From Micromonospora profundi (GTDB lineage: Bacteria > Actinomycetota > Actinomycetes > Mycobacteriales > Micromonosporaceae): a stretch of DNA of 64,000 nt. The position numbers were made by a program, and so were the translations under genes. Positions 52,740-56,781 of the stretch are shown one piece after another. The DNA is taken from positions 5,737,001 to 5,801,000 of the forward strand of contig NZ_JAATJK010000001.1 in assembly GCF_011927785.1 (NCBI RefSeq). Reading direction: 5' to 3'. Numbering within the stretch: position 1 is the first letter of the stretch; each line of letters opens with the position of its first letter. Below the pieces are notes generated by a model that saw only the letters and a program-made list of their open reading frames with translations, searched no databases and was not told the origin of the DNA.

Positions 52740-52775
52740 GCCAGTGCCGATCCCGGATCCGGGCTTGGCACTGGC
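52740..52775 (+). terminator. Terminator after the MaoC gene
   Basis: GCCAGTGCC (52740-52748) pairs with GGCACTGGC (52767-52775) around an inner palindrome CCCGGATCCGGG. It overlaps the -35 of the next operon's promoter. Confidence 0.65.
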
Positions 52776-52816
52776 GTTCTCGTGCGCTAAGTTGTTCTCA
52801 CAGAGAGATGTTCTCA
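52765..52816 (+). promoter_or_regulatory. Promoter and candidate NrtR operator of the four-gene operon
   Basis: TTGGCA (52765-52770) and TAAGTT (52788-52793) are 17 bases apart. TGTTCTCA occurs at 52793-52800 and 52809-52816, a 16-bp phased direct repeat covering the likely transcription start. Placement right before an NrtR-type regulator suggests autoregulation. Confidence 0.6.
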
Positions 52817-52832
52817 AAGTGAGGGTGACGCG

Positions 52833-53585
52833 ATGAACGAGCAGGAGTTCCTGGAGGCGTACGACCCCCGGGCCTACCCGTCGGTCGCCGTGACCGTCGA
52901 CGTGGTAGCGCTGACCATCCGCGACGGCGCGCTGCACCTCTTGCTGATCCAGCGGGGCCAGCCACCCTTCGAGGGGCACTGGGCGCTGCCCGGCGGCTTC
53001 GTCCAACCCGACGAGGACCTCGCCGCCGGTGCCCGACGTGAGCTGGCCGAGGAGACCGGGCTCGGCGGCGAGGGGCTGCGCCGCGTACACCTGGAGCAGT
53101 TGGGCAGCTACGGCGCTCCCGACCGCGACCCGCGGATGCGCGTCGTCTCGGTCGCCCACCTCGCGTTCGCCCCCGACCTGCCCGACCCGGCCGCCGGCAG
53201 CGACGCCGACGCGGCGACCTGGCTGCCGGTGACCGCCCTGACCAGCCGGCAGCTCGCCTTCGACCACGGCCGGATCATCGACGACGCGCTTGAGCGCGCC
53301 CGCTCCAAGCTCGAATACACCCCACTCGCCACGCGCTTCCTCGCCGCCGAGTTCACCATCAGCGAGCTACGCGCCGTCTACGAGACGGTCTGGGGTCACC
53401 CCCTGCACGCCGGCAACTTCCACCGCAAGGTGCTGTCCGTGCCGGGCTTCGTGGAAAGCACCGGCGCCAGCACCGAGCGCGGCGGCTCGCGGGGTGGCCC
53501 CCGCGCCCGGCTCTACCGGGCCGGCGACGCCCGGCTGCTGCACCCCGCGCTGCTGCGCCCCGCCCGCGAGGAGACGGTGCGATGA
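52833..53585 (+). CDS. NrtR-type Nudix/winged-helix regulator
   Basis: A 250-residue protein with a Nudix domain (residues 15-145) joined to a winged-helix domain (about 155-230). The Nudix box GX5EX7REUXEEXGU is complete (Gly55, Glu61, RELAEETGL 69-77), unusual because many NrtR regulators have lost catalysis. The C-terminal helix-turn-helix reads FTISELRAVYETVWG. NrtR proteins bind ADP-ribose-type NAD metabolites. It heads a four-gene operon; the stop overlaps the next ATG. The direct repeat upstream is its likely site. Confidence 0.85.
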   Translation: MNEQEFLEAYDPRAYPSVAVTVDVVALTIRDGALHLLLIQRGQPPFEGHWALPGGFVQPDEDLAAGARRELAEETGLGGEGLRRVHLEQLGSYGAPDRDPRMRVVSVAHLAFAPDLPDPAAGSDADAATWLPVTALTSRQLAFDHGRIIDDALERARSKLEYTPLATRFLAAEFTISELRAVYETVWGHPLHAGNFHRKVLSVPGFVESTGASTERGGSRGGPRARLYRAGDARLLHPALLRPAREETVR

Positions 53586-54553
53586 GGACCGCGGAGGCCA
53601 TCGGCCTGGTCACTGCCGCCCGCACCGACACCGACCTGTTCGGCACGGACCAGCCGGCCAGGCGCTACCGCGAGCTGGTCGCGGCCCTGCACCCCGACCG
53701 CCTGACGGCCGACCCGGCGGTACGCGCCGAAGCCCTCGACGCGTTCATCCACGTCACCACCCGGTGGCAGGCCCGGCAGGTCACAGTCCTCGGCGACTAC
53801 CGCCTCGGCGCGCTTGCCCACTCCGGTGACCTTGCCGACCTCTACGACGTCGGAGACGACAGGCTGCTCAAGCTGCCCCGGCGGCCCACCGACAACGACC
53901 TCATGGCCCGCGAGGCACACGCCCTGCACACCATCGCCGAACGCGGCGACCCGCGCTACCTGCCGTACGTGCCCCGACTCGTCGACGAGTTCCGGCACTC
54001 CGACGCCGCGACCGGCGCCGAACGGCGGATCAACGTGCTCGCCACCGCGCCCGGCCTGCACGACCTCGACGCGGTGCGGCGCGCGTACCCCGACGGGCTG
54101 GACGCCCGCGACGTGGCCTGGATGTGGCGGCGGCTGCTCGTGGCACTCGGCCTGGCCCACCGGGCCGGCGTGGTGCACGGCGCGGTCCTGCCGCGACACG
54201 TGCTGATCGAGCCGGCCGCCCACGGCGTGGTGCTCGTCGACTGGTGCTTCTCCGCGCCCGTCGGCAGCACGATCCCGGCCATGGTGCCCGGCTACCAGGA
54301 CTGGTATCCGCCGGAGGTCTTCCAGAAGCGGCAGTGCGGGCCGGGCACCGACATCTGGATGGCGACCCGCTGCATGACCTCGCTGCTGAACCGCCACGCG
54401 CCGCGCGAGCTGCTCGCCTTCGCCCAGGGCTGCCGGCAGCGGTTCCTCAAGGACCGGCCCGACGACGCGTGGCGCCTGCTACGCGAATTCGACAACGTGC
54501 TGGGCCGGCTCTACGGGCCACGCACCTTCCGCCCCTTCACCCTCACCCCCTAA
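53582..54553 (+). CDS. J-domain protein fused to a protein-kinase-like domain (pseudokinase)
   Basis: A 323-residue fusion. Residues 1-65 resemble a J domain with the HPD motif (His37-Asp39). From about 70 a kinase-like fold begins: Lys97 in LLKLPR and Glu111 in MAREAHAL fit the catalytic lysine-glutamate pair, but the HRD position reads VVHGAVLPRHVLI with Ala201 in place of the catalytic Asp, while DWC (220-222) replaces DFG. A phosphotransfer role is thus doubtful. It may recruit Hsp70 or bind nucleotide. It overlaps the NrtR stop (ATGA) and precedes the VWA gene by 9 bp. Confidence 0.75.
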   Translation: MRTAEAIGLVTAARTDTDLFGTDQPARRYRELVAALHPDRLTADPAVRAEALDAFIHVTTRWQARQVTVLGDYRLGALAHSGDLADLYDVGDDRLLKLPRRPTDNDLMAREAHALHTIAERGDPRYLPYVPRLVDEFRHSDAATGAERRINVLATAPGLHDLDAVRRAYPDGLDARDVAWMWRRLLVALGLAHRAGVVHGAVLPRHVLIEPAAHGVVLVDWCFSAPVGSTIPAMVPGYQDWYPPEVFQKRQCGPGTDIWMATRCMTSLLNRHAPRELLAFAQGCRQRFLKDRPDDAWRLLREFDNVLGRLYGPRTFRPFTLTP

Positions 54554-54562
54554 GGAGCTGTC

Positions 54563-55522
54563 ATGGGCAGTGGAATCTGGTCCACCGACGTGTACGACGC
54601 CGCCGACCGCTACCGCAGGTCGACCGGCAAGAGCGCCTTCTCCTACAGCGACAGCGGGGCCCGCACCGTGCACCCCGCACTCGACCCCCGGGAGGCGACG
54701 CGGGAGAGCCGCGACTCCGACGAACACCCCCGGTCGACGCCCGTCGCGGTGCTCTTCGACGTGACAGGCTCGATGCTCAAGGTGCCGCGCGTCCTGCAGA
54801 CCAAGCTGCCGCAGCTGCTCGGGCTGCTGCAACGGCAGGGCTACGCAAGCGACCCGCAGATCATGTTCGGGGCGATCGGGGACGCCACCTGCGACCGGGT
54901 GCCGTTGCAGGTCGGCCAGTTCGAGTCGGACAACCGAATGGACGACGACCTCGGCCGGATCGTCCTCGAAGGCGGTGGCGGCGGGCAGATGACCGAGTCG
55001 TACGAGCTGGCCATGTACTTCATGGCCCGGCACACCGCCACCGACAACTGGGACAAGCGCGGCCGGCGCGGCTACCTGTTCATCATCGGCGACGAGCTGG
55101 CGTACCCGACGGTGAAGGCGCGGGAGGCTGCCGGCGTGATCGGTGACAACCTGACCGAGGACGTGCCGCTGCGGCACATCGTCGACGAGGTGACGAGCCG
55201 CTGGGACACCTACTACCTGCTCCCCGCCGGCAGCCACTACGCCGGCAACGCGAAGGTGCTCGACTTCTGGCGGGACCTGCTCGGGCAGAACGCGGTGGTC
55301 CTCGACGACCTCGATGCGGTCTGCGAGACCATCGCGCTCACCATCGGCCTCGGTGAGCAGGCCATCGACCTTGACGAGGGCCTGCGTCACCTGGACCGCG
55401 CGGGCTCCACCGCCACCGGCACCGTGTCGAAGGCGCTGGCCCGCCTCAACCGGGGGCGGCGCGCCGAGGTGTCGACGCTGCCGGCCTTCCGCGACACCAC
55501 AGGCGGGGTGACCCGACTGTGA
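54563..55522 (+). CDS. VWA-like domain protein
   Basis: A 319-residue cytoplasmic protein with a von Willebrand factor A-like domain. A 60-residue N-terminal segment (GSGIWSTDVYDAADRYRRSTG) precedes the metal-adhesion motif DVTGS (Asp66, Thr68, Ser70). FGAIGDATCD and LFIIGDELAYP are later strands of the fold. AAGGAG lies before the ATG. In operon with NrtR, the J-domain protein and the PurA-like enzyme; the stop overlaps the next start. It may scaffold the others, like VWA proteins paired with AAA ATPases, though no ATPase is present. Confidence 0.78.
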   Translation: MGSGIWSTDVYDAADRYRRSTGKSAFSYSDSGARTVHPALDPREATRESRDSDEHPRSTPVAVLFDVTGSMLKVPRVLQTKLPQLLGLLQRQGYASDPQIMFGAIGDATCDRVPLQVGQFESDNRMDDDLGRIVLEGGGGGQMTESYELAMYFMARHTATDNWDKRGRRGYLFIIGDELAYPTVKAREAAGVIGDNLTEDVPLRHIVDEVTSRWDTYYLLPAGSHYAGNAKVLDFWRDLLGQNAVVLDDLDAVCETIALTIGLGEQAIDLDEGLRHLDRAGSTATGTVSKALARLNRGRRAEVSTLPAFRDTTGGVTRL

Positions 55523-56781
55523 GGCACGTGGCGGTGGTCGACCTCGGCTATGGCGACGCTGGCAAGGGCACTGTCGTGGACTGGCTCTGCGCCACCCGAC
55601 CCGTGCACACGGTCGTCCGCTTCAACGGGGGCGCGCAGGCGGCGCACAACGTCGTGCTGCGCGACGGGCGGCACCACACGTTCGCACAGTTCGGCGCCGG
55701 CACCTTCCACCCCGGCGTGCGTACGCACCTGTCGCGGCACGTGGTGGTGGACCCGCTGGCGCTGGCCGCCGAGGCCGACCATCTCGCCACTGTCGGGGTG
55801 CCCGACGCGCTGGACAGGTTGACAGTGGACGGGTCGGCACTGCTCGCCACCCCGTACCACCGGGCCGCCAACCGGGCCCGGGAGATCGCCCGGGGAGCCG
55901 ACCGGCACGGCTCCTGCGGGCTGGGTGTGGGCGAGGCCGTCGCGTACGGTCTCGCCCACCCCGACGACGCGCCACGGGTCGCCGACTGCCGCAGCCCAGC
56001 GCTGCTGCGCCGTCGGCTGACCGTCCTGCGGGACCGGCTCACCGCCGAACTCGGCCCGCTGGACGCCCCGCCGGTCGAGGACTGCCTGCCCGCGTTCACC
56101 GGGTTCGCCGGCCGGGTCGCGATCGTCGACGGCAGCTGGCTCGCCGGGGCGCTGCGCTCCGGGACGTGCGTCTTCGAGGGTGCACAGGGGGTGCTGCTGG
56201 ACGAGTGGCACGGCTTCCACCCGTACACGACGTGGAGCACCACCACGTTCACAAACGTCGACGGCCTGCTCGCCGAGGCGGGCCTGCCCGGCGAGGTGGC
56301 CCGGCTCGGGGTGCTGCGGATCGTCACCACCCGGCACGGGGCCGGCCCGCTGGTGACCGAGGACCAGGCGCTGCCGTTCACCGACCGGCACAACGCCACG
56401 AACCCGTGGCAGGGCCGGTTCCGGTTCGGCCACTTCGACGCTGTCGCCCACCGGTACGCCCTCGCGGCAGCCGGCGGCGTCGACGGCCTCGCGCTCACCC
56501 ACCTCGACCTCGCCGGCCCCGGCCTGCGGATCTGCCGCCGCTACGACACCACCGACCGGATCACCCCGGGCCCGCCCGGTGACCTGGACCGGCAGGCCGC
56601 GCTCACCGCCCGCCTGCTGCGCTCCCGCCCGGTGTACGACGATCCACCGTCGGACTGGCCGGAGGCGGTACGCGCCGAGCTGGGCGCGCCCGTGGTGCTG
56701 ACCTCTCACGGCCCCACCGCCGGGGACAAGACACCGCACGGGCCGCTGCTCGCGGCACCGGCCCTGGCCCGGTCGGTCTGA
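55519..56781 (+). CDS. Divergent adenylosuccinate synthetase paralogue
   Basis: A 420-residue protein of the PurA fold, distinct from the true purA at 63176. The P-loop reads LGYGDAGKGT instead of GDEGKGK, keeping the catalytic Asp13 and Lys16; the second catalytic His is His43 in GGAQAAHNVV. EGAQGVLLDEWHGFHPYTT is the middle motif; the region equivalent to [13 protein letters not shown] is NPWQGRFRFGHFD. The missing residues suggest another nucleotide substrate or amide-forming reaction. Last gene of the NrtR operon, ATGA-overlapping the VWA gene. Confidence 0.85.
   Translation: MRHVAVVDLGYGDAGKGTVVDWLCATRPVHTVVRFNGGAQAAHNVVLRDGRHHTFAQFGAGTFHPGVRTHLSRHVVVDPLALAAEADHLATVGVPDALDRLTVDGSALLATPYHRAANRAREIARGADRHGSCGLGVGEAVAYGLAHPDDAPRVADCRSPALLRRRLTVLRDRLTAELGPLDAPPVEDCLPAFTGFAGRVAIVDGSWLAGALRSGTCVFEGAQGVLLDEWHGFHPYTTWSTTTFTNVDGLLAEAGLPGEVARLGVLRIVTTRHGAGPLVTEDQALPFTDRHNATNPWQGRFRFGHFDAVAHRYALAAAGGVDGLALTHLDLAGPGLRICRRYDTTDRITPGPPGDLDRQAALTARLLRSRPVYDDPPSDWPEAVRAELGAPVVLTSHGPTAGDKTPHGPLLAAPALARSV

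Follow-up and report, generated by a model that had tools for sequence, protein, structure and literature searches.

A 64,000-nucleotide stretch of the Micromonospora profundi genome (contig NZ_JAATJK010000001.1, positions 5,737,001 to 5,801,000; hereafter the window) contains, as a first-pass annotation had noticed, a cassette of four same-strand genes at 52833-56781. They encode a Nudix regulator of the NrtR type, a J-domain pseudokinase, a VWA-domain protein and a divergent relative of the adenylosuccinate synthetase PurA, and a double operator precedes the first of them (Table 1). The genes are tightly packed, joined in cassette order by an ATGA overlap (nrtR/kinase), a 9-bp gap (kinase/VWA) and a GTGA overlap (VWA/PurA-like). 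The genome, a single contig of 6.93 Mb, also encodes a canonical PurA, 6.4 kb downstream of the cassette.

Table 1. Coordinates (window numbering) of the cassette genes, their operator and the canonical PurA gene. MIDAS, metal ion-dependent adhesion site.
Feature	Position	Strand	Description
Tandem-palindrome operator	52791-52829	+	GTTG TTCTCA-CAG-AGAGAT G TTCTCA-AAG-TGAGGG TGAC
nrtR	52833-53585	+	Nudix domain fused to NrtR winged helix; catalytic Nudix box intact
J-domain pseudokinase	53582-54553	+	J domain at about residues 1-65, HPD at 37-39; kinase fold at about 67-311; HRD changed to H199-G-A
VWA protein	54563-55522	+	integrin beta I-like fold; MIDAS D66-x-T-G-S70; near-invariant Met-Gly start; tail ends Arg-Leu
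Divergent PurA-like ligase	55519-56781	+	GTG start; GTGA overlap with the VWA gene
Canonical PurA	63176 to past window end	-	

The four genes are conserved as a unit. A VWA profile run against 84,980 species genomes yielded at least 557 confirmed relatives, of which only the best 80, all from Actinobacteria, were fetched, so that the sample leans to close kin. The order NRTR-KIN-VWA-PURA, determined by gene end, is present in 73 of these 80 loci; five others, including three from Hamadaea, read NRTR-VWA-PURA, no kinase having been recognised within 6 kb, and two are interrupted by contig ends. The four genes occur together in more than 10 other actinobacterial genera, and none of the seven genes flanking the cassette in the window is present in any of the 55 loci from other genera, some of which stop at contig edges. 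On plasmids of Rhodococcus, Tsukamurella and alphaproteobacteria, the cassette is kept together with its regulator in another place. The 80-locus set being anchored on the VWA gene, a PurA-anchored search of 61 related genomes (PF00709) was run as a guard. It returned 26 divergent copies (190-213 bits), each within about 1.1 kb of a VWA gene; canonical PurA was also seen in 24 of the 26 genomes, the other two (G001 and G028) being drafts, of 560 and 410 contigs, that yielded the divergent PurA alone. Pairwise protein distances correlate across cassette members (Mantel r 0.71-0.91), as expected if the proteins travel together, although shared descent alone would yield the same. The first-pass annotation had proposed that the four genes would prove incidental if they were rare outside the genus or if their neighbourhood varied freely, and both suppositions are contradicted by these loci.

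Within Micromonospora the cassette occupies a single site, flanked on one side by a MaoC-like gene and on the other by a VTT/DedA gene, and the window flank genes are shared by 24 of 25 Micromonospora loci (one recorded as Verrucosispora). The VWA gene is present in 41 of the 61 genomes of the genus and, with at most five candidates scored per genome, in two of 396 genomes across the phylum, both Micromonospora. When 15 of the 20 cassette-less congeners were examined, MaoC and VTT were found to be adjacent in 13 (the VTT match being partial in one), while one of the other two has no VTT gene there and one runs off its contig. Between MaoC and VTT in one of those 13 (G033) lies a decayed PurA-like remnant (L251, 2747-2843), which indicates that cassette loss occurs. 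At a further locus (L214, G009:C13:66438-69557) the cassette seems broken, with kinase fragments about 2.5 kb apart, no VWA match and the operator kept.

The prediction of a direct-repeat operator upstream of nrtR was right. It consists of two 15-bp units (52795-52809 and 52811-52825) with a 16-bp period and extends from -42 to -4 relative to the nrtR start codon. TTCTCA or its complement occurs within 140 bp upstream of nrtR in 71 of 78 loci. Anchored on the outer half-sites, the consensus reads GTTnTTCTCAnnnyGAGwtnwtCTCAnnnTGAGaannAC, that is, two tandem TTCTCA-N3-TGAGAA palindromes. The CTC and GAG cores, including the inner GAG that was not used for anchoring, are nearly invariant in 77 of 79 rows; rows L075 and L088 do not fit and were dropped as poor. 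The exact sequence TTCTCA-N10-TTCTCA occurs once in the window genome, and 37 of the 61 Micromonospora genomes contain the operator pattern, each at a single place, compared with one of 61 for the reversed pattern. Judged by eye, 36 of these 37 places lie 1.5-1.9 kb upstream of a VWA match, and the place in G009 adjoins the broken cassette. NrtR therefore appears to be dedicated to the cassette operon; at the stringency of this pattern search, nothing in cells pointed to a role as a global regulator of NAD (nicotinamide adenine dinucleotide).

As for the regulator itself, both its Nudix domain and its NrtR winged helix score above the Pfam gathering thresholds, and its 140.9 bits fall below the 400-bit cut-off of the NCBIfam NtrR equivalog. 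Its Nudix box is intact, and a strict box pattern is matched by 50 of 78 cellular relatives. The window protein resembles NrtR regulators of NAD metabolism such as MsNrtR in its Nudix and winged-helix domains and in an operator placed before its own gene, but differs in three respects from MsNrtR as described in the published study (PMC6800001): the MsNrtR operator is GTTTTCGA-N7-TCGAAAAC rather than tandem TTCTCA-N3-TGAGAA, the Nudix box and activity of MsNrtR are lost whereas the window box is intact, and the window operon contains no NAD synthesis gene. The position of the gene also varies: nrtR precedes the other genes on actinobacterial chromosomes, lies downstream of them on the plasmids of Rhodococcus and Tsukamurella, and is divergent on those of Agrobacterium and Acetobacter, where the Acetobacter copy is split over two open reading frames (ORFs).

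The PurA-like protein shares the fold of canonical PurA and its catalytic residues D13, K16, H41, Q224 and D333. Counted over 155 proteins (80 from genomes and 75 viral), Asp13 and His41 are each kept in 80/80 and 74/75 respectively. In contrast, the substrate pocket differs: N38 is replaced by Q in 153 of 155 and V273 by H in 152, T129 has become C or V in 150 and K331 H or C in 147, R303 is variable, and the R143 position and the aspartate loop also depart from canonical PurA. We take N38, T129 and V273 to be residues of the inosine monophosphate (IMP) pocket, the pocket roles, apart from that of Asp13, being those in the E. coli literature. The window protein scores 147.6 bits against the 402-bit cut-off of the NCBIfam PurA equivalog (NF002223), and the family is separate from eight canonical rows in the tree described below.

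The second protein of the cassette has a J domain. Its HPD motif, flanked by helices at 25-36 and 45-65, occurs in 72-73 of the 74 cellular relatives and in 56-57 of the 64 viral ones; Pfam DnaJ was detected in 29 of 58 relatives, the window protein not being among them. Its kinase moiety is that of a pseudokinase, as the catalytic Asp of HRD is replaced by Ala in all 74 cellular relatives. The cellular proteins keep K97 and E111 in 74/74 and D220 in 71/74, while among the 64 viral relatives these residues are kept in 32, 34 and 25. The VWA protein has a MIDAS motif and a predicted VWA/integrin I-like fold; its profile found no sequence match among PDB chains at E values up to 10, and the fold assignment thus rests on the structure model. 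The C-terminal tail, modelled with low confidence, ends in Arg-Leu, and an [RK][LIVF] end is found in 31 of 49 non-redundant VWA proteins, compared with 4 of 46 PurA-like proteins and 1 of 41 kinases.

Three of the four genes are also widespread in phages. Among 50,697 phage records searched by tblastn, the VWA query matched 206 (188 Mycobacterium, 10 Rhizobium and 6 Vibrio phages), the kinase query 191, and a mycophage PurA-like query 225, of which 190 were at least 90% identical. In the Mycobacterium phage LRRHood the kinase gene is followed by VWA, a small gene and PurA-like; the Vibrio and Rhizobium phages have VWA and PurA-like genes with no recognised kinase. A scan of viral contigs confirmed 343 relatives, and in the best 80, with genes counted within 6 kb, 60 carry kinase, VWA and PurA-like genes, 15 VWA and PurA-like, four kinase and VWA, and one VWA alone; 13 of the 80 loci lie on contigs longer than 200 kb. 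L041 was dropped because of a stop codon, and the profiles were built after removal of two rows of A1 that were not kinases and one row of A3 that was not a regulator. Maximum-likelihood trees were computed for the PurA-like protein (the window, 59 of 162 PurA-like rows, eight canonical rows and one PurZ) and for the VWA protein (the window plus 61 of 167 rows, truncated to 290 residues). In both, the actinobacterial copies fall within the phage sequences, and the copies on alphaproteobacterial plasmids fall within another phage clade. As the trees carry no inferred root, the direction of transfer is a matter of inference only. Our tentative conclusion, falling a little short of probable, is that a module widespread among large phages with double-stranded DNA exists here in a bacterial form under the control of NrtR.

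Some phage copies carry features of their own. In the Mycobacterium phage Yassified (L038:5001-6782), the VWA gene contains an in-frame, intein-like insert just before a conserved GDE motif; it begins with Cys and ends SSN before Cys, and the gene is annotated as an HNH endonuclease in the record. The match to the VWA query is likewise in two parts in many other records of Mycobacterium phages. In AT-rich phage contigs, the VWA gene is followed at a distance of two or three genes by an R2K_2 ATP-grasp gene (L163, L165, L167, L169, L172, L173, L174, L183 and L188). Phage neighbours of the R2K ATP-grasp (nine loci), HAD_SAK_2 (eight) and DNA-ligase-like (nine) kinds, for each of which one representative was scanned, come mainly from related AT-rich phages and were excluded as evidence.

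A connection to NAD is found in three viral contigs. In L141 and L144, NrtR is followed by a NadV-like gene, a small gene, VWA, PurA-like, kinase and an adenylyltransferase-like gene for nicotinamide mononucleotide (NMN), and in L143 the order is NrtR, VWA, NadM-like, NadV-like, PurA-like and kinase. L141 and L144 are kin (63-70% identical), so that these contexts represent two lineages. The NadV assignments are strong, scoring 564 and 578 bits where 405 would suffice (NF006629, named nicotinate phosphoribosyltransferase in NCBIfam), and Pfam adds a NAMPT N-terminal domain. The adenylyltransferase assignments are weak: the NCBIfam matches are all below cut-off (E values of 2e-6 in L141 and 6e-9 in L143), and Pfam CTP_transf_like reaches 32.4 bits in L141 and 19.4 of the 21 needed in L144. 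The adenylyltransferase-like proteins of L141 (11467-12606) and L144 (8899-10029) have an extra N-terminal half that by eye is like CinA/PncC-type NMN amidohydrolases, for which Pfam reported no match. Elsewhere, L148 has a NadV fragment and L186 a NadV match about 6 kb away. These operons thus combine the module with phage NAD+ salvage (NadV with NadM or NadR), which we take to be what is known as NARP2; the window operon, in contrast, lacks NadV, an NMN adenylyltransferase and any other gene of NAD biosynthesis or salvage. Phage NAD+ reconstitution provides a nearby published context, although the part of that paper examined does not include the cassette (PMC12774641). The NAD link suspected at the outset draws on the NrtR family and on the phage operons joining NrtR, NadV, an NMN adenylyltransferase-like gene and the module (three of 80 viral loci); in the genus, the operator pattern was seen only at the cassette.

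The first-pass annotation had advised a check for nearby defence, ADP-ribosyl or macro-domain genes. A first clustering of ORFs around 56 actinobacterial loci was noisy because GC-rich antisense ORFs form clusters (the largest, besides the cassette and its antisense frames, covered 11 loci); up to two genes on each side were therefore scanned directly in 28 of the 56 loci, giving 102 ORFs, of which 100 were aligned and two long ones excluded. Among the best 25 of 75 Pfam families, none exceeded 7 of the 100 proteins (TIG), and no recurrent defence or ADP-ribosyl neighbour was seen, a result with which a rare macro or ADP-ribosyl gene is compatible. PADLOC hits were scattered (subtilase 3, IetS 3, mad2 2 and mad3 1 per 100, among the best 25 of 105 families), and one neighbour protein matched many PADLOC kinase models, including PD-T4-6 and mad6. 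The four cassette proteins themselves gave partial hits to MkoA, PD-T4-6, mad6, PglW and PDC-S07, the best at 5.6e-10. Systems pairing a Nudix transcription factor with a vWA chaperone have been predicted around ADP-ribosylglycohydrolase, in the part of PMC9503650 that bears on them, where the present cassette does not appear; the cassette shares that pairing but has neither ADP-ribosylglycohydrolase nor phosphatase, and has instead a PurA-like ligase and a J-domain pseudokinase. The notion of a conflict system, also put forward initially, becomes more credible with the frequent presence of the kinase-VWA-PurA part in large lytic phages; among the families listed, no recurring neighbour points to a defence or ADP-ribosyl system.

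Taken together, the cassette looks like an NAD-linked phage-host conflict system, and its best explanation, one that we hold with reserve since it may well be wrong, is a phage-related, NAD-linked purine-ligase module placed in cells under a dedicated NrtR repressor. The mechanism we infer would run as follows. Tandem NrtR dimers on the double palindrome would repress the operon until an ADP-ribose-type, NAD-derived ligand rises, for example from NAD+ breakdown in infection or stress; since its Nudix box looks active, NrtR may also destroy the signal. The PurA-like enzyme would perform standard PurA chemistry, with activation at purine C6 driven by guanosine triphosphate and then attack by an amine, on a substrate that the changed pocket suggests is other than free IMP plus aspartate. 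Because some phages have the module in an operon with NadV and an NMN adenylyltransferase, the substrate we would guess first is a purine nucleotide related to NAD or ADP-ribose. The VWA protein would be the constant partner, its metal site and conserved Arg-Leu tail positioning ligase or substrate, and the J-domain pseudokinase would recruit DnaK for assembly or recycling of the complex. The benefit to phages would be that a nucleotide pool under attack by host defences is protected or rebuilt, and bacteria would have re-used the module under NrtR. A more specific version, which we regard as distinctly unlikely, is that the PurA-like/VWA pair builds or repairs the purine ring of NAD+/ADP-ribose-type dinucleotides and that NrtR senses the same metabolite. 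Such editing might convert a hypoxanthine form back towards adenine, or produce an N6-substituted NAD unusable by defence NADases, the substrate being presented by the tail of the VWA protein or by its N-terminal glycine, and DnaK being recruited by the pseudokinase; in a bolder variant, the amine acceptor would be the VWA protein itself, resulting in purine-to-protein conjugation.

Several points weigh against an NAD-linked, phage-derived module under NrtR. The NAD-operon contexts occur in only three of 80 viral loci, and 77 of the 80 have no NrtR within 6 kb. The branch joining 60 PurA-like rows is supported at 88/92, below the highest class, in a tree whose root was not inferred, and the IMG/VR contigs are viral by collection, only the named isolates being certain phages. 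PurA could tolerate such pocket changes, and the R303 region is hard to align, MAFFT and HMMER putting the gap at different places. Finally, the strict Nudix box is not matched by 28 of the 78 cellular NrtRs, nor by the plasmid and phage regulators.

The catalytic core kept in the PurA-like protein would also suit an ordinary role in purine supply, in which a second adenylosuccinate synthetase raises adenosine monophosphate during phage growth or stress and the other genes aid folding. Large-genome phages need purines, and anaerobic ribonucleotide reductase genes lie upstream in the Vibrio phage L036. This is nevertheless unlikely given the NCBIfam score far below cut-off, pocket positions changed almost without exception, a canonical PurA in nearly all genomes with a divergent copy, and a VWA gene adjoining every divergent copy in the PurA-anchored search. 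Were the ligase instead a PurZ-like enzyme making a modified DNA base precursor for phage genomes, the PHROGs label of the family (2-aminooxy adenylosuccinate synthetase) would be explained, and phage PurZ and PurZ0 are likewise phage-encoded PurA relatives. However, according to the relevant part of PMC12884076, PurZ/PurZ0 are recognised by replacement of Asp13 with Ser or Gly, and it is Ser in all 147 phage PurZ sequences, whereas Asp13 is retained almost throughout the PurA-like family. The pattern is in fact reversed, as phiVC8 PurZ has Ser at Asp13 and keeps N38 and V273, both changed here. Chromosomal copies under NrtR, moreover, are ill-suited to DNA modification, and the kept Asp13 and the pocket residues led us to reject this reading as very improbable.

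A bacterial stress or antiphage system, in which the Nudix regulator senses ADP-ribose released in infection, damaged proteins are dealt with by a VWA chaperone and a signal nucleotide is produced by the ligase, would agree with the predicted Nudix regulator and vWA chaperone systems (PMC9503650, in the same part) and with the sporadic presence of the VWA gene in the genus and phylum. We consider it doubtful, as none of the expected neighbours recurs among the best 25 families of the 100 proteins, the PADLOC hits of the four proteins were confined to weak ones of the kinase and Nudix kinds, and lytic phages themselves carry the kinase-VWA-PurA core. For an incidental operon of unrelated genes only the diversity of parts can be cited. 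The gene order conserved amid changing flanks leads us to reject it, and with the phage copies and the shared operator its probability becomes negligible.

The cassette appears to be new in that no matching system was found in PADLOC, NCBIfam or the open-licence PMC papers searched, a scope outside which de Souza and Aravind 2012 falls; the word adenylosuccinate is absent from the main text of the later papers by that group that were searched. The genome note of the mycophage Pinkcreek contains the words PurA and adenylosuccinate in the part seen (PMC9476963). If our reading is correct, genes whose annotation goes no further than kinase, hypothetical protein and PurA-like, and which are carried by many larger phages as well as about 190 records of Mycobacterium phages, form a single module, which bacteria also use under an NAD-type sensor. 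It would offer a testable link among phage NAD+ salvage, purine chemistry and chaperones, together with a J domain naturally fused to a kinase and a metabolic ligase that has an integrin-like partner.

Two further features of the genome deserve mention. A second NrtR-type regulator (G000:C1:3416513-3417226; L213:5514-6227) adjoins a nucleoside-phosphorylase-like gene; judged by eye, it is apparently in a mobile region and looks unrelated to the cassette. Directly 3' of the MaoC-like gene and immediately before the operator, an inverted repeat, GCCAGTGCC...GGCACTGGC, at window positions 52740-52775 is possibly the terminator of that gene.

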